From the NCBI GenBank assembly GCA_029209985.1, contig JARGNZ010000009.1, positions 1-64,000 on the forward strand: 64,000 nucleotides of DNA, written 5' to 3'. The position numbers and the translations under genes were made by a program. The notes under the pieces are model-generated. The model had not been told where the DNA came from, ran no database searches, and saw only the letters and a program-made list of their open reading frames with translations. Numbering within the stretch: position 1 is the stretch's first letter; each line of letters begins with the position of its first letter. Origin of the DNA: Parvibaculaceae bacterium (lineage in GTDB: Bacteria > Pseudomonadota > Alphaproteobacteria > Parvibaculales > Parvibaculaceae). Below, in pieces: positions 13,300-63,775 of this stretch.

Positions 13300-13716
13300 A
13301 TGCGCGCGATTGAACCAACCACAGAGCAATTAGAGAAATTTGCATCCCTTGATCAGGATCAGCCGATTGTCATGTTGAACTTGCTGAAGTTCAAAGACCA
13401 AGCGACCTATCCAGAGGGCAGTGGCCATGCACCGTGCACGGGCTTGGAGGCTTATGTGCTGTACTCAGCGGTTGCCATGAAGTCGATTGAGAAGGTGGGT
13501 GGAAAAATTTTGTGGAGCAGCACCCCGGAAATGAAGATGATTACGGGAAGTGACGAAAATTGGGATATGACTGCCATTGTGCGCTACCCATCGCGTAAAG
13601 CTTTTCTCGAAATGACCTCTGCATTGCCGGAGTACCAAGCAGCTCTTGTGCACCGTGAGGCAGGCTTGGCCTATCAAGACCTCATCCAATGTGCCGAAGG
13701 GTTTTCTGGTTTTTAA
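13300..13716 (+). CDS. DUF1330 family protein
   Basis: A 138-residue protein with the ferredoxin-like alpha/beta fold expected of DUF1330; the opening PIVMLNLLKFKD stretch is typical. No catalytic residue is known for the family. A start with upstream GGGAG is clear. It lies directly after the TetR gene and may share its transcript. The following kinase could begin inside its 3' end but more likely starts 84 bases beyond its stop. Confidence 0.8.
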   Translation: MRAIEPTTEQLEKFASLDQDQPIVMLNLLKFKDQATYPEGSGHAPCTGLEAYVLYSAVAMKSIEKVGGKILWSSTPEMKMITGSDENWDMTAIVRYPSRKAFLEMTSALPEYQAALVHREAGLAYQDLIQCAEGFSGF

Positions 13717-18627: not shown

Positions 18628-19058
18628 GACTTTTCCTCAACCTTCTTGATTATGACATTTTATCACTAAATAACCTTTTTTGATCTCTTTGTCAGGCAGT
18701 TTATGGAAGTTCAAAAAGGGCGCTCCATTGGCCGCTGTTCGTGTGCAAGCCGACCCGATCTGATCCGTGTGAGGCGTAAAGCTAAAGGGGAGGGTTTTCG
18801 GCGTTTTGGATAAACAGAAGGGACTGTCACATAAGGTTCGTAATTATCCGTACAACTACGTTAGCCTTGCAAATCGGCTAAGAAGAAAATGATTCGCTGA
18901 ATATGGCGCGTCTCAGGACCCAAATTCGGTTTGCAGGCATGGGCAGGGCTGTCGGCGGTCGATCCCATTTTCATATGAAACTAGGCGTAAATGGGTAACC
19001 CTACAGACTGTTGGTCAAGGTGGATCGCATGTCGGGCGCTATAGAGGAGTCAGCTAGA
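18628..19058. other. 431-base non-coding gap between the SDR and phoR genes
   Basis: This stretch should contain the divergent promoters of the SDR gene and phoR. I see an inverted repeat CCCATTT/AAATGGG (18964-18995) near the phoR end and a lone CTGTCAC (18824-18830) resembling half of a Pho box without a second half. I find no convincing gene or RNA here. Confidence 0.6.
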
Positions 19059-20372
19059 ATGGGTATTAAGCCCCTTACATCGCTAGAGCAATTTGTTGCT
19101 AGAATGTGGCCCTTTCGCCTGTTTGGGGGCGTCACTCTTTTGGTGTTCGCGTGCTTGGTGGGGTGGGCAGGCTTAAATATTTGGATAGCTGCGGCGTGCG
19201 TGGGTGTGTTGACCATTGGTCTTTCCGCCACCCTCTCTCGGCGTGTCATTGGCAAAGCCCCGAGTGTGGCCGTAGGCCAGCGCCGAGCAAAGGGTGTTTT
19301 GGAGATGCCCAAAAATGGCATTGATAGCTTGGTGGTTCAATCTCTGCGAGACCCTCTTATTTTGGTGAATGAACTGGGGCGCGTTGTTTTCAAAAACGAA
19401 GCCGCCGATATTCTCGTGGGCGAACAGGCAGAAAACAAACATTTGGCGAGCGTGTTGCGAGTGCCAGATGTGTTGAGCGCCGTGGAAAATGTCCTAAACG
19501 GCAGGGAGCCTGAGCGTGTAGAATATACAATGCCGGTCCCCGTGGAGCGCAGCTTTGAAGCTTTCATTGCAGCGCTTGATAAGAGCGTGGCGCGCCAAAG
19601 TGTTCAAAATTTAGATATGGCACCTCGGGTGCTGATCATGTTTCACGATGTCACAGAGAGCCGACGCGTTGAGCAGATGCGCGTGGATTTTGTGGCGAAT
19701 GCGAGCCATGAGTTGAAAACACCTTTGGCCTCGGTGCTGGGTTTTATTGAGACGTTGCAAGGGCACGCCAAAGATGACCCAGAAGCACAAAGTCGATTTT
19801 TGGAAATAATGTCGACCCAAGCATTGCGCATGCAAAAGCTGATTGACGACCTGCTCTCCCTAAGCCGCATTGAATTGCGTGAGCATGTCCCCCCATCTGG
19901 TGAAGTGGATATCGGTGCTTTGCTGGGCGATGTGGTGGATGGGTTAGGTCATCTCGCCGCGCAGCAAGATGTGACGATCGACATCCAAGCAATGGCGGAC
20001 AGTCCCACCAAAGTCACGGGAGATTGGGACGAGCTTTATCAAGTCATGCAGAACTTGGTGGATAACGCGATTAAATATGGCGGGGCAGGTAAGAAGATTG
20101 ATATCAGCTTGGCCTTAGATACGTCGGGCCGCCGTTCGATGCTGGCCATTTGTGTAAAGGACTACGGTCCGGGCATCGCGCGCGAACATTTACCTCGATT
20201 AACAGAACGCTTTTATCGCGCTGATATTGCCAGTTCTCGGGAGCGGGGAGGCACGGGGCTCGGCTTGGCCATCGTTAAACATATCATCAGCCGTCACGAT
20301 GGGACCTTGAGTATCGATTCTGAGCTGGGGGTGGGAACCAATATGACAATTCGCCTGCCTATAAAGGCATGA
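19059..20372 (+). CDS. phoR: Phosphate regulon sensor histidine kinase PhoR
   Basis: About 437 residues. Two short membrane segments occur at about residues 15-55, then a PAS-like domain (about 100-200), HisKA with NASHELKTPLAS (His217) and HATPase with the N box, DYGPG and GGTGLGLAI all intact. It senses phosphate status through the Pst/PhoU complex and phosphorylates PhoB. GAGGAG lies 9 bases before the ATG at 19059, which I prefer over the 19011 alternative. It heads the pst-phoU-phoB locus, typical of alphaproteobacteria. Confidence 0.92.
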   Translation: MGIKPLTSLEQFVARMWPFRLFGGVTLLVFACLVGWAGLNIWIAAACVGVLTIGLSATLSRRVIGKAPSVAVGQRRAKGVLEMPKNGIDSLVVQSLRDPLILVNELGRVVFKNEAADILVGEQAENKHLASVLRVPDVLSAVENVLNGREPERVEYTMPVPVERSFEAFIAALDKSVARQSVQNLDMAPRVLIMFHDVTESRRVEQMRVDFVANASHELKTPLASVLGFIETLQGHAKDDPEAQSRFLEIMSTQALRMQKLIDDLLSLSRIELREHVPPSGEVDIGALLGDVVDGLGHLAAQQDVTIDIQAMADSPTKVTGDWDELYQVMQNLVDNAIKYGGAGKKIDISLALDTSGRRSMLAICVKDYGPGIAREHLPRLTERFYRADIASSRERGGTGLGLAIVKHIISRHDGTLSIDSELGVGTNMTIRLPIKA

Positions 20373-58216: not shown

Positions 58217-58630
58217 TTAAATCACGGCGTGGCGGGCACGGGCACCACGTTCAATGGCTGCTGTCGTGAGTTTCTCGAGGCCCAAAGTATCCGCAAGAAT
58301 TTGCAAGAGGCGAAGCTCTTCAGGTTGGATCGCCCGGTCAGATGCTGCGACTTCAACCGCAACAGCATAAGCTGTTTCACGCAAATGCACGGGTAGAGAT
58401 TCTTTGGCCAAACCGAACACAGCTTCCAGTCCACCGTCTTCCTGCAAAATGGCGCCACATTCTTCAGCCACCTGCACGAGCTTTTCTGGCGAAAACCCAT
58501 CAAATACGGGCAGGAATGTCACCATATTGCCGATGTCTTGCAATTCTTGGTCACTCATGGAGCGGTCCACTGCAGACATTGTCACCATGATATAAATCAG
58601 GGCGGTGTGGGGGCTAATGGTTTGCGTCAT
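58217..58630 (-). CDS. TerB-like helical protein
   Basis: A 137-residue all-helical protein with the TerB/DUF533-like pattern of repeated acidic helices (SAVDRSMSDQELQDI and AASDRAIQPEEL). TerB domains bind calcium and membranes; resistance to tellurite is not implied. AGGA is about 9 bases before the ATG at 58630. It is the first gene of the operon with the desaturase and sixA. Confidence 0.82.
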   Translation of the reverse strand: MTQTISPHTALIYIMVTMSAVDRSMSDQELQDIGNMVTFLPVFDGFSPEKLVQVAEECGAILQEDGGLEAVFGLAKESLPVHLRETAYAVAVEVAASDRAIQPEELRLLQILADTLGLEKLTTAAIERGARARHAVI

Positions 58631-58771
58631 GGAATAGTTTCCTACTTTAGTTGAAGGTGGCACGCGACACGGTTAGACGTCGGGCACAGCATATGAATGG
58701 TCGGCTGAAGTCTCAGCTCTGAATTGACCTCAAATCTATGAAGTTCAGCGCTGGGAAACAAGCTTTTGAGA

Positions 58772-58883: not shown

Positions 58884-61800
58884 TTAGTCTTGATTAAAGA
58901 GCCTGACGGTCTCAACAGCTTGGGCAAGGCCGACCCGCTCAATGTCAATTTCTGCGGGGAAAGCCGTTGTCAGCCGAGTGGGTAATTGCGCATCCAGCAT
59001 CACAAAAATCCCCCGGTCGGTATGGCTGCGGATCAGGCGGCCAAAAGCTTGTTTTAACTTGAGCCGGGTAATCATGTCATCATAGCGCGATTTGCCAAAG
59101 GTTTCCCGTCGGGCTTTGTGCAAAATATCGGGCCGCGCCCATGGCGTGCGGTCAAAAACAATCAGCCGGAGGGAGCGCCCCGGCACATCCACCCCATCGC
59201 GAATGGCATCCGTTCCCAAAAGGCAAGAGTCTGTTTCTGCCTTAAAAATATCGATGAGCGTGCCCGGATCAATGGCATCAACATGCTGTGCATAAAGGGG
59301 CAGGCCGTGCTCACTCAAAGGGCCGAGCAATTTGTTTTGCACGTCGCGTAGTCGGCGGATGGCGGTGAACAGTCCCAAGGCCCCCCCATGCGACGCCAGA
59401 AATAGTTCTCGGTAAGCCGCTGCAACTTGATCTGGCGAGTTTCGGTTCACATCCTTCACCACCAAAATACGGGCCTGTTTTGCATAGTCAAAGGGGGAGC
59501 TAAAAGCAGCACGTTGAGCCGCATGGGGAAGGTGGCGGGCACCTGTGCGCGTATCAGCATTTTCCCAATCCCGGCTAATAACAGATGGCGCGTCCATCAC
59601 GTTCGTGCCAGAGGCCGTTGCAGCGTCCCCGTCACTTGGGGGAGACGGGGGGTGCAAAATTTCATCGCGTAAGGTGGCCGATGTAATCAGCACCCCGTGT
59701 GCTTGGCCGTAAACCGTTTCTACCAGCGGTCGCGTCGGATCAATCCAATGGCGATGCAGGCCGGTATCCACATCGCGAACGCCGTCTCGGTCCAGCGAAA
59801 ACCAACTGACAAAAAGGCCAGCTTCCCGGTCAGGTGTGCCCTCCTTATCTGCCATCGCCGTGCGCACAAGGTCACCCAACATCCGCCGCCATGCCAACAA
59901 GAGCGTTTGGTTGCGTCGTTCCAGCCCCCGGATAAGCGCATCAATGCGCACCCGCGTAGAAGGTTCCAACCGGTCGGCCCCATCGTCGAGCACATCACGC
60001 AGCCCTTCAATCACCCCTTTGAAGGCGCGCGATAAGGTCGAGAGGGTTTGGTCCAACGTACCTGCTTGGGTGAGCACCGCTTCCGGTAAATCAGAAACAC
60101 CTGTTTCAAGTGAATAACCAGACGCCCGCCCATTGCTGCGTGCCAGCACCAATTGGCGGCAACTGGCCAGAAACTTTTCAGCAGCGCCCTTCGGCTGCCC
60201 ATCCGCCAATCGGTTCTGCCAGCCCGGAGCGGGCAACCCTCCGGCAGCTTTTAAGGCCATTTGCAAGGCATCTTCACCGCTGGAATGGCCGTCAAGGAGG
60301 TCGCCTGCGCGGTCCAAAAGCCCTCGCCCCCGTGCCCGACTTCGGGTCTCAGTCCCTCTAATCCAGCGGCGCAGTTCAGCTGTTTCAAGCCCGGTGATGT
60401 GGGCTGAGAAGGCGCTGTCCGCCGCATCAAAAAGCTGGTGTCCTTCGTCAAAGACAATCCGGCTCATAGCATCATCAGCGGTGGGAATCTCGTCTTCCGC
60501 GCCCGCTGCATGGCCGGGGCCATCAAGCGTTTCGTGCCCGTCGAGTTTGTTTTCAGAGCCATAGGTTAAGCTGGCCAGCGCTGCACGGCGCAACACGAGC
60601 GCGTGGTTGGCGACAACAATTTCAGCGTGGTGGGATTTGCGAATAGCCTTTTCAACAAAACACTTTTTGTAGTGGGGACATGCCGAAAACATACACTCTC
60701 CGCGTCGGTCTGTGAGGGCAGGCACCATGCCGGAAGCGTCCAATGCAGAGGGCAGCCATGCGGGAAAATCTCCGCCAACCATATCGCCGTCACGGCTGGC
60801 TTCCATCCAGCGCGCCACCAATCCTGTAGCAACCGCATCCACGCCTAAAGCCGCGCGGTTGGCCCCTTCTTCATAGTTGAGCAAGCACAGATAATTTTCA
60901 CGCCCCTTGCGAATAACCGCCTTCTCGCGTTTTTCAACAGGGTTGGGATAAAGCCGGTCCAGCTCCTGATCAAGTTGGCGTTGCAAGTTCTTTGTGTAAG
61001 TAGAAATCCATACGGTGCCTTCGTTTTGCTCGGCCCATAAACTCGCAGGCGCAATATACCCAAGTGTTTTGCCCGTGCCCGTGCCCGCTTCAGCCAGCAG
61101 CACGTTGGGCGCTCCCGGCAAATCAGGGGGATCAAACGCAAGCGTTGCTTTTGCAGCAAAGTCAGACTGCGCTCGGCGTTGTTCGGCATCTGGCCCCACA
61201 AGCAAGGCCAGCCGTTGGCGGGCTTTGTCCGGGGCAATGGATATCTGGGCAGGGCGGGGAGGGGGAGGCTGCTCTTCCCATTCTTCAAGGTCCGCCCAAA
61301 CGCTATACCCAGACCCATGGTTTCTGCCGCCTTCTTCGCGCGGCCCCAGTGCGGCCAGCACAAATTGGCCCCAGCCCCAACCAGATTGGGTCATCAAATG
61401 CGCCAGCGATCGCGCATGGTCTTTGGCGGCTTTGGGCTGGTCGGCAGCAGCACTTAAAAGAAGCTGCATCGCGTGCAACAGCCCTAGGGCTAAGTCTTCA
61501 GGGCTTGGCTCGTCCGTGGCAGAGGTCAGCGCCAGTGCCCGCATCACCCCAAGCGGTGTGGGTAAACAGGGGCGCGCGGGATAGACAAAAGCAAACAGCT
61601 CCAAAATGTCCAAGGTTGAGGGGTGCAGCGGTGGGCGCTGATTTTGCCCGCGTCCCGGCTGCATGGAAGGCATCACCCGCCGACTGGTGAAAAGCCGATG
61701 GCAAATAAGGTGCGGCGCATCTCGCAAGGCAGCCATGGCCTGCGGGCGTGTATGTTCAATAATTTCACCAGATAAATCAACGCTGACACCTCCCATAGGG

Positions 61801-61898
61801 GCAGGCACCAAAGCGGGAAGCTCTGGCATAAGCGGGCCGTCAAAAGCCGGAGAGACTGGCGAGGCCGAAGACGAATCGGGCAAAGAAGTGTCGGTCAT
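58884..61898 (-). CDS. DinG/XPD-family ATP-dependent DNA helicase
   Basis: A 1004-residue superfamily 2 helicase. Walker A is AEAGTGTGKT (near residue 270); the iron-sulfur cysteines occur as CLLNYEEG, CMFSAC and CPHYKKC; the DEAH box reads DEGH; and motif VI is in LKQAFGRLIRS. It unwinds DNA or R-loops in repair. The ~230-residue N-terminal region is family-specific and rich in Pro. The gene follows the sensor-like gene by 32 bases in the same direction. Confidence 0.92.
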   Translation of the reverse strand: MTDTSLPDSSSASPVSPAFDGPLMPELPALVPAPMGGVSVDLSGEIIEHTRPQAMAALRDAPHLICHRLFTSRRVMPSMQPGRGQNQRPPLHPSTLDILELFAFVYPARPCLPTPLGVMRALALTSATDEPSPEDLALGLLHAMQLLLSAAADQPKAAKDHARSLAHLMTQSGWGWGQFVLAALGPREEGGRNHGSGYSVWADLEEWEEQPPPPRPAQISIAPDKARQRLALLVGPDAEQRRAQSDFAAKATLAFDPPDLPGAPNVLLAEAGTGTGKTLGYIAPASLWAEQNEGTVWISTYTKNLQRQLDQELDRLYPNPVEKREKAVIRKGRENYLCLLNYEEGANRAALGVDAVATGLVARWMEASRDGDMVGGDFPAWLPSALDASGMVPALTDRRGECMFSACPHYKKCFVEKAIRKSHHAEIVVANHALVLRRAALASLTYGSENKLDGHETLDGPGHAAGAEDEIPTADDAMSRIVFDEGHQLFDAADSAFSAHITGLETAELRRWIRGTETRSRARGRGLLDRAGDLLDGHSSGEDALQMALKAAGGLPAPGWQNRLADGQPKGAAEKFLASCRQLVLARSNGRASGYSLETGVSDLPEAVLTQAGTLDQTLSTLSRAFKGVIEGLRDVLDDGADRLEPSTRVRIDALIRGLERRNQTLLLAWRRMLGDLVRTAMADKEGTPDREAGLFVSWFSLDRDGVRDVDTGLHRHWIDPTRPLVETVYGQAHGVLITSATLRDEILHPPSPPSDGDAATASGTNVMDAPSVISRDWENADTRTGARHLPHAAQRAAFSSPFDYAKQARILVVKDVNRNSPDQVAAAYRELFLASHGGALGLFTAIRRLRDVQNKLLGPLSEHGLPLYAQHVDAIDPGTLIDIFKAETDSCLLGTDAIRDGVDVPGRSLRLIVFDRTPWARPDILHKARRETFGKSRYDDMITRLKLKQAFGRLIRSHTDRGIFVMLDAQLPTRLTTAFPAEIDIERVGLAQAVETVRLFNQD

Positions 61899-61930: not shown

Positions 61931-63775
61931 CTAATTGAGACTTGGATAGGCCCGCGAAAGTTCCATGAAGCCGTTGGCAAATCCAGTTTGAATTTCCTGC
62001 GTGAGCTGGCTGGCCCGGACTTTGTCTTCGCTACTAGCCGCGATAGACAGCGCTCCCGCAATATTGGACAGGTCCACTAGACCAATAGAGCGGGCTGCTT
62101 CTTTAATACTTTGCGACACATCCAGCAGACTGCGTAAGTCAGCTTGTGAATTTGCCGTTTCTAAGTGGCGGCACGCCAAGGCAACACGCCCAAGGGTCTC
62201 AGAAAGGTGCTGTGTCATAGACGTAAGCCCCACTTCTTCTTCCAAAGCATACAGCGTATCGAGATTGAGAATACGGCGTTCAGATGCGGTGTCGGGCAGT
62301 GGCTCCGGCATGAGCTTGCCAACAGCGGGGTCGCACGCAAGCACAAACCAAGCAATCACGTTACCGCCGTAAACACCGTCCACACCAATTTTCCCGTCCA
62401 TCGCATGAACCAACTGGCTGCAAAGTGCTAAGTCCAAGTTTTCTGGGGCATCGCCTACGCGGTCTGAAAGGGGTTCTTCCTGGTCTAAAACTTGCGCCAT
62501 GCCATCGGGGTTCATCTGTGTTTCTGTGGCGCTAACCGAAAATCGTACCGCCTCGCCGTGCGGGTGCATGGCAACCGGTGCCAAATGAAGAATAACACCG
62601 CCCGATGTCAGGTGACGGGTCGCGTGAACGATGAGATTAATAATGACCTGCTTCACCCGGTCTGGGTCTGCATACATTTCAGATGGCAGGCGCGTAGAAA
62701 TATCAACTTCAATAGAAAGGCGCGCCGAAAACATCTCTAAGCGCAGGAGTTGCACAACGTCCTTGGTCAACTCTGCTGGGTCAAAGCTTTGAGGACGCAA
62801 TTTCAAAGAGCTTTGCGACAGGCTAGAAAGGTCGGCAATGTCAGAAATAAGACGTTTCAGCAAGCGCCCATCATCGCGCATAGCCCCGCAAAGGGCGGTC
62901 TGTTCATCAGTCAACGAGGTTTTGCTGAGGGCGTCTGAGGCCGTTGCCAAATTGGAAAGTGGGCGGTCAAATTGGCGCACCACCATATTGAGAAAATCTT
63001 GGCGGCGATTATCTGCTTCTTGGGCTTCCTGCCACGAGGCCTTGGCTTCTTCATGCTTTTGCTTGGTCAACTTGTTGGCCTCAACCATTGCCGCTGCTAA
63101 GTCGGAATTTTCAAGTTGCAGGCGAATGTTCTCCGCACTGTTTTTTTGCAAGGTGCGTGTCCAGCCCCCTAAAAAGGCAACACAAATGAAACCGAGTGCG
63201 CAAATAAATTGTGCATACTCATTGGTCGACAGCATCAAGCCGATAGATGTGGGGATCCACGCCATGCCTGTATAGGACCACATCGCAGGGGGGTAGTTAT
63301 GCCGGGACAACACAGAGCTGATACCGGTCGAATAGAGCACCGCAGCAAACAGAGCTTGCAAAACAAAGGGCGCATCCGGTAGCCACATCAAGCCCGCCAA
63401 ACCCCAAGTGAGGCCACTCATCATACATCCGCGCGCATATCGGTCAGCCCAACTTATCGGATTGTCGTGGGCTGTCTCGCTATTTTCATAGAGGCTCCGC
63501 AACCGGTTGAAATACAATTGGGCAAAGGCTTGGTTCAGCAAAAGGGGCAGAATTGTCCATGCTTCCACGTAGGGCAAAAAGGGCACCCAGCACGCAATAA
63601 GAATGGCAAACATTAGAATTGAGCCGTTCCGACCCATTTGAAACATTAAACCAATTTGACGCGCAACGACACGTTTGGGAAGCCTCAGACCACCACCGAA
63701 AAGGGAGGTATCAGAAATTTCCGTAGTGACCTCATGACGGTTTTGATCAGTCTGCACATCGCTTCGCACAGGCAT
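61931..63775 (-). CDS. Degenerate membrane histidine-kinase-like protein (pseudokinase candidate)
   Basis: A 614-residue protein. Residues about 45-205 contain six membrane segments, 212-258 a coiled coil, and 255-480 a HisKA/HATPase layout. The H box reads FLNMVVRQFDRPL, with Arg267 where His is expected; the N box reads QVIINLIVHATRH, with His384 replacing the ATP-binding Asn; the DxGxG and GxGLGL loops are absent. Residues 500-614 resemble an HPt domain, but its His appears to be Gln555. No frameshift interrupts it, so it is likely a real protein with a signalling or scaffold role. It is transcribed just upstream of the helicase gene. Confidence 0.82.
   Translation of the reverse strand: MPVRSDVQTDQNRHEVTTEISDTSLFGGGLRLPKRVVARQIGLMFQMGRNGSILMFAILIACWVPFLPYVEAWTILPLLLNQAFAQLYFNRLRSLYENSETAHDNPISWADRYARGCMMSGLTWGLAGLMWLPDAPFVLQALFAAVLYSTGISSVLSRHNYPPAMWSYTGMAWIPTSIGLMLSTNEYAQFICALGFICVAFLGGWTRTLQKNSAENIRLQLENSDLAAAMVEANKLTKQKHEEAKASWQEAQEADNRRQDFLNMVVRQFDRPLSNLATASDALSKTSLTDEQTALCGAMRDDGRLLKRLISDIADLSSLSQSSLKLRPQSFDPAELTKDVVQLLRLEMFSARLSIEVDISTRLPSEMYADPDRVKQVIINLIVHATRHLTSGGVILHLAPVAMHPHGEAVRFSVSATETQMNPDGMAQVLDQEEPLSDRVGDAPENLDLALCSQLVHAMDGKIGVDGVYGGNVIAWFVLACDPAVGKLMPEPLPDTASERRILNLDTLYALEEEVGLTSMTQHLSETLGRVALACRHLETANSQADLRSLLDVSQSIKEAARSIGLVDLSNIAGALSIAASSEDKVRASQLTQEIQTGFANGFMELSRAYPSLN

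Follow-up and report, generated by a model that had tools for sequence, protein, structure and literature searches.

A probable pseudo-histidine kinase at a conserved locus of Parvibaculaceae, with a record of repeated catalytic loss among its orthologs

In a 64,000-nucleotide stretch of DNA from a Parvibaculaceae bacterium (the window), a gene on the minus strand at 61931..63775 probably codes for a sensor kinase that is functional yet catalytically dead, that is, a pseudo-histidine kinase, working via protein contacts. Comparison with orthologs shows its descent from an apparently active multi-domain kinase at the same locus, with loss of the phospho-acceptor histidine, the ATP-site motifs, the receiver and the histidine of the HPt domain. 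Repeated separate losses at this one locus suggest signalling by partner contact rather than enzymatic activity.

Results

Gene and predicted architecture

The gene starts with ATG and its frame is intact over 614 residues, as an earlier, sequence-only reading of this DNA had stated; the frame is also open in all copies of the locus gene examined. We ran AlphaFold2 on 15 sequences. In the model of the window protein, and with profile A2, residues 34-205 (63161..63676, as all features below on the minus strand) form a membrane domain of six helices, predicted at 34-66, 72-98, 106-131, 137-158, 162-181 and from 186 onward. A coiled-coil or signalling helix (residues 206-256; 63008..63160) runs unbroken from the sixth transmembrane helix to the first DHp helix, so that TM6 is continued for about 100 residues. 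Pfam and the model together delimit a DHp (HisKA)-like domain (residues 257-328; 62792..63007) and a CA (HATPase_c)-like domain (residues 329-482; 62330..62791). An HPt-like helical domain follows (residues 505-609; 61949..62263), supported by a sub-threshold Pfam match and by a well-predicted bundle in the model (pLDDT mostly 77-94).

The CA-like part is modelled as an alpha/beta domain with a low-confidence lid region (420-447). Over the whole chain, a mean pLDDT of 77.7 and a pTM of 0.40 leave the arrangement of the domains uncertain. Among the Foldseek matches of the model, GacS and RetS come first with their kinase regions, and such predicted structural matches are evidence of fold, not of function.

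No Pfam family matched the membrane part, either in the window protein or in an outgroup copy, and Pfam found no PAS domain in the window protein. This six-helix sensor domain (63161-63676) is nevertheless widespread, occurring in 62 of 385 alphaproteobacterial genomes at E 1e-12. The protein ends in YPSL (61937..61948), whose P611 is invariant across 30 family sequences. This YPxL-like motif is kept in Parvibaculaceae and is present in outgroup family f5 and one protein of outgroup family f121; it may be a contact motif. No Rfam elements were found near the gene.

Loss of the catalytic sites

Ortholog alignments bear out each of the five site losses that the sequence-only reading had proposed by eye. 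In the H box, the phospho-acceptor His is replaced by R267 (codon 62975..62977), and in the N box Asn is replaced by H384 (62624..62626). The DxGxG motif reads A416-x-E418-x-Q420, with A416 (62528..62530) at the position of Asp. GxGLGL is lost, GLGL being replaced by NLDLAL; the lost G2 box (residues 447-452; 62420..62437) reads LDLALC where GLGL is expected. In the HPt-like C-terminus, Q555 (62111..62113) stands at the position of the histidine.

The protein thus carries none of the residues that define an active HisKA kinase (H-box His, N-box Asn, DxGxG and GxGLGL), and its predicted HPt-like bundle has Q555 in place of the phosphorylatable histidine. R267 also sets it apart from the ChpT-like state, in which the DHp histidine is kept and the CA domain is dead. 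What it does show are the marks of a pseudo-histidine kinase: a kinase shape, no catalytic residues and a gene under selection.

The domain scores are mixed. With Pfam, the window protein reaches 29.3 bits on HATPase_c (above the cut-off of 26.4), 23.7 bits on HisKA (below 26.9) and 14 bits on Hpt (below 24.6); the HATPase_c match alone would name it a sensor kinase, a warning for annotation. The other two kinases of the window score 72-100 bits on the HisKA and HATPase_c models, about three times as much. Both of these, at 13689 and 19011, retain H, N, D and G2 as had been said of them, and nine further kinases of the same genome, which surfaced as relatives, also keep the motifs, bringing the total to eleven.

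In a large survey, the histidine is missing in 0.9% of HisKA domains and in 0.9% of Hpt domains (PMC12632262). With so low a base rate, chance does not account for the loss of all sites in a single protein. The claim that the usual phosphate relay is impossible for this protein is well supported by the motif losses, and judged by its sequence the protein is almost certainly catalytically dead.

A conserved locus

Counted from the stop of the pseudokinase gene, 32 bases lead to the start codon (61898) of a DinG/YoaA-type helicase gene (58884..61898), exactly as first noted. This downstream neighbour is part of conserved synteny, with a TerB-like gene (58217..58663) next in the block. Across Parvibaculaceae the order is class I LysRS, pseudokinase gene, DinG, TerB-like and fatty-acid hydroxylase, and beyond LysRS the conserved block adds DUF952, PyrD, ArsC and MATE. 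The LysRS-kinase-DinG core is also found in the outgroup families f4, f5, f121 and f126, with a kinase-motif-intact gene there. Because DinG belongs to this old, broadly conserved block, its adjacency gives little ground for a functional link, and we play down a link specific to DinG.

Searched alone against the named genomes, the window protein gave no match; the relatives came from an alignment-based scan. One ortholog is present in 22 of 24 relatives within the family, and the window gene belongs to this LysRS-DinG ortholog group by its single copy per genome and its position. Both exceptions belong to genus g2; there, as in L208 (G002), the stretch from DinG to DUF952 contains neither a class I LysRS gene nor a copy of the pseudokinase gene. 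No gene for a response regulator was seen adjoining the pseudokinase gene at the locus.

Intact and damaged orthologs

Homologues with intact His and Asn, which the sequence-only reading had counted as evidence against itself, do exist in Parvibaculum-type copies and in the outgroup families; yet what they show is loss from an active ancestor. The question raised there of whether the substitutions are conserved is answered in the negative, as other lineages have Q, D or an intact His at position 267. R267 itself is shared with the sister species and occurs independently in one g5 genome.

The active syntenic orthologs (f4, f121, f126 and the Parvibaculum-type kinases with an HPt-like tail) share with the window protein the locus, a related membrane domain and the DHp-CA core, but in them His, Asn, Asp and G2 are intact. 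At this locus f4 has an HK-REC-HPt protein with intact sites (one f4 genome lacks the HPt in frame), f126 has HK-REC, and f121 has HK-HPt with all sites intact and no receiver. In f5 an intact kinase core is followed by a receiver-sized segment and then by an HPt without its histidine; the segment had no Pfam receiver match in the copy tested (L034). By eye, the segment between kinase and HPt lacks the phospho-acceptor Asp in L034, L170 and L171 of f5. No receiver domain is found in the Parvibaculaceae copies.

Within the family, most copies of g5, the Parvibaculum-type genus, have H, N, D and G2, usually with the HPt histidine absent. All sites are damaged in g1, which includes the window. 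In g3 the His is kept, Asn is changed to Arg and G2 is lost, while g4 has H to Q, N to Y and D to S. Single proteins depart in their own ways: L029 has H to D and a lost G2, L026 has D to A, and L155 (G053), sister to the intact L152, has H to R but keeps N, D and G2. Several of the relatives come from metagenome assemblies, which leaves each lone substitution, D to A in L026 for example, dependent on a single assembly. By its sequence, L155 appears to be an ATP binder without a phospho-acceptor. The g3 orthologs L012-L018, with His kept, the ATP site broken (N to R, G2 lost) and a DHp omega of 0.01-0.03, look like a ChpT-type phosphotransfer state, not a fully dead one.

A maximum-likelihood tree built from 44 proteins groups g4, g1 and g3 in one clade, with g5 as the other. 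The terminal branch of the window sequence is long (1.58 changes per site). Both clades return when the motif columns are removed, which sets aside a long-branch artefact as their source; the window sequence stayed in this motif-free tree, and its own placement is therefore less certain. Combined with parsimony, the tree gives at least four losses of His within Parvibaculaceae, together with three for Asp and a single one for Asn. Meanwhile H, N, D and G2 of a control kinase (19011-20372) are unchanged in 15 of 15 family orthologs. As the control keeps its motifs in the same genomes, the decay is a feature of the locus rather than of the lineage; the control, together with the further kinases of the window's genome, rules out a lineage-wide decay of kinases.

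Selection on the gene

Against the sister species G001, in which R267 is also present, the window gene has a dN of 0.127 and a dS of about 2.4 over 302 codons. The resulting omega of about 0.05 is approximate because dS is near saturation, and it covers only the first half of the window copy because the sister contig extends no further. In g4, the two copies that are fully dead give an omega of 0.12 (membrane 0.01, DHp 0.11, CA 0.08, HPt 0.18), and g3 pairs give 0.05-0.07. Among 30 family sequences, dead members included, invariant residues are densest in the CA-shaped part (21 of 154). The gene is thus evidently under purifying selection, and both the membrane domain and the kinase-shaped body are constrained rather than drifting freely. 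These dN/dS values rule out a pseudogene and lend good support to the proposal of a maintained non-catalytic protein.

Discussion

Taken together, the protein is very probably functional and non-catalytic. As for how it may work, RocA, RetS and DivL offer comparisons that are best taken as functional analogies and not as homologous systems. RetS of P. aeruginosa controls GacS, a case of kinase-kinase control, and the DHp-CA regions of these two are the best fold matches of the model. At 20-23% identity, any HisKA kinase could give a match of this level, and both the membrane part and the domain order differ.

RocA of group A Streptococcus, as far as the available text of PMC7028121 describes it, is a pseudokinase with six putative transmembrane helices that binds CovS and does not need kinase activity for its function. 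In its six helices, kinase-shaped body and degenerate ATP site it resembles the window protein, for which sequence and model likewise indicate six transmembrane helices and a degenerate kinase body. Unlike the window protein, RocA belongs to another phylum and retains its His (H246, dispensable), and that text describes no HPt-like tail, which the window protein has (PMC7028121). A pseudokinase form of ChrS heterodimerises with HrrS (PMC9491836). DivL reads DivK~P and works without kinase activity, and like the window protein it has its phospho-acceptor His replaced (PMC4211667). The DivL type is marked by PAS domains, Tyr or Ala at the His position (Tyr in DivL) and otherwise intact boxes, none of which the window protein has; in their stead it has a six-helix membrane domain and an HPt-like tail, and its ATP site is lost.

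A pseudo-histidine kinase domain has been named in RcsD (PMC3762810). Like the window protein, RcsD is a membrane protein with a pseudo-kinase body followed by an HPt and with no receiver; the match of the window protein to the NCBIfam RcsD model is weak (41 bits, cut-off 634). Phosphotransfer from RcsD to RcsB goes through its HPt, whereas the HPt-like part of the window protein has Q555 at the histidine position.

We propose that the six-helix domain would sense a signal, that this would travel along the continuous TM6-coil-DHp helix, and that binding of the DHp/CA/HPt-shaped body to another two-component protein would change in response. The likeliest target would be an active histidine kinase whose activity is biased, as in RocA/CovS and RetS/GacS, with a response regulator less likely. 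Action on another histidine kinase is an evenly balanced proposition, and action on a response regulator appears rather improbable. The former is preferred because an intact kinase whose membrane domain is related co-occurs with the gene. This kinase (G000:C42:105564-107177) lies in the same genome and scores a distant 28 bits on the family membrane profile. Each near-complete family genome searched that carries the gene also has relatives of this kinase that align into the membrane part, and g2 has none, a co-absence that is weak because g2 has few kinase matches altogether. On its sequence it may be considered a candidate partner, as a lead only. That genus g2 lives without the gene counts against our explanation.

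The protein could instead resemble DivL in being directed at a response regulator rather than a kinase, either as a phospho-specific receptor or as a decoy that sequesters it. DHp and HPt surfaces normally dock receivers, and in the window protein both shapes are kept and predicted to be folded. DivL is moreover an alphaproteobacterial precedent (PMC4211667), but it keeps its motifs except His and has PAS domains, whereas the window protein has neither an ATP site nor PAS, and no regulator gene adjoins it; we consider such a role unlikely.

Alternatively, the gene may have no present function and be decaying toward loss, in keeping with the recurrent loss of catalytic residues, the long branch and the complete absence of the gene from g2. 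Open frames in all copies examined, omega values of about 0.05 for window and sister, 0.12 in g4 and 0.05-0.07 in g3, and the invariance of fold-determining residues in 30 sequences argue against this, and make it very unlikely.

The phosphatase motif of HisKA kinases is usually H-E-x-x-T/N. Because R-Q-F-D-R stands in its place, with E and T/N both replaced, and with no response-regulator gene seen beside the locus, it is most improbable that the protein has kept the phosphatase half of a bifunctional kinase and dephosphorylates a response regulator with no kinase activity, even though HisKA phosphatase activity does not strictly require the His (PMC12632262).

The reading of a pseudo-histidine kinase acting by contact remains our preferred one, since contact is the simplest way for a dead kinase to work when its sensor, signalling helix and docking surfaces are all retained. 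Pseudo-histidine kinases are known already, though few have been studied, and the transition from active kinase to pseudokinase is rarely visible; here the series of losses is unusually clear. Among related bacteria, one syntenic gene takes an intact hybrid form, a pseudo-receiver form, a form with no receiver, one that is ATP-dead but still bears the His, and one that is fully dead; with these graded forms at one locus, it can be tested directly whether a non-catalytic role came before catalysis was lost. Tentatively, and with some doubt on our part, the ancestral kinase may have gained an important non-catalytic job before catalysis was lost; phosphotransfer would then have become dispensable family-wide and been dropped at least four times, with different residues broken in each lineage. 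If so, a single orthologous gene would show, in natural gradations across the family, the passage from hybrid kinase to pseudokinase, and even the motif-intact Parvibaculum copies would work mainly by contacts.
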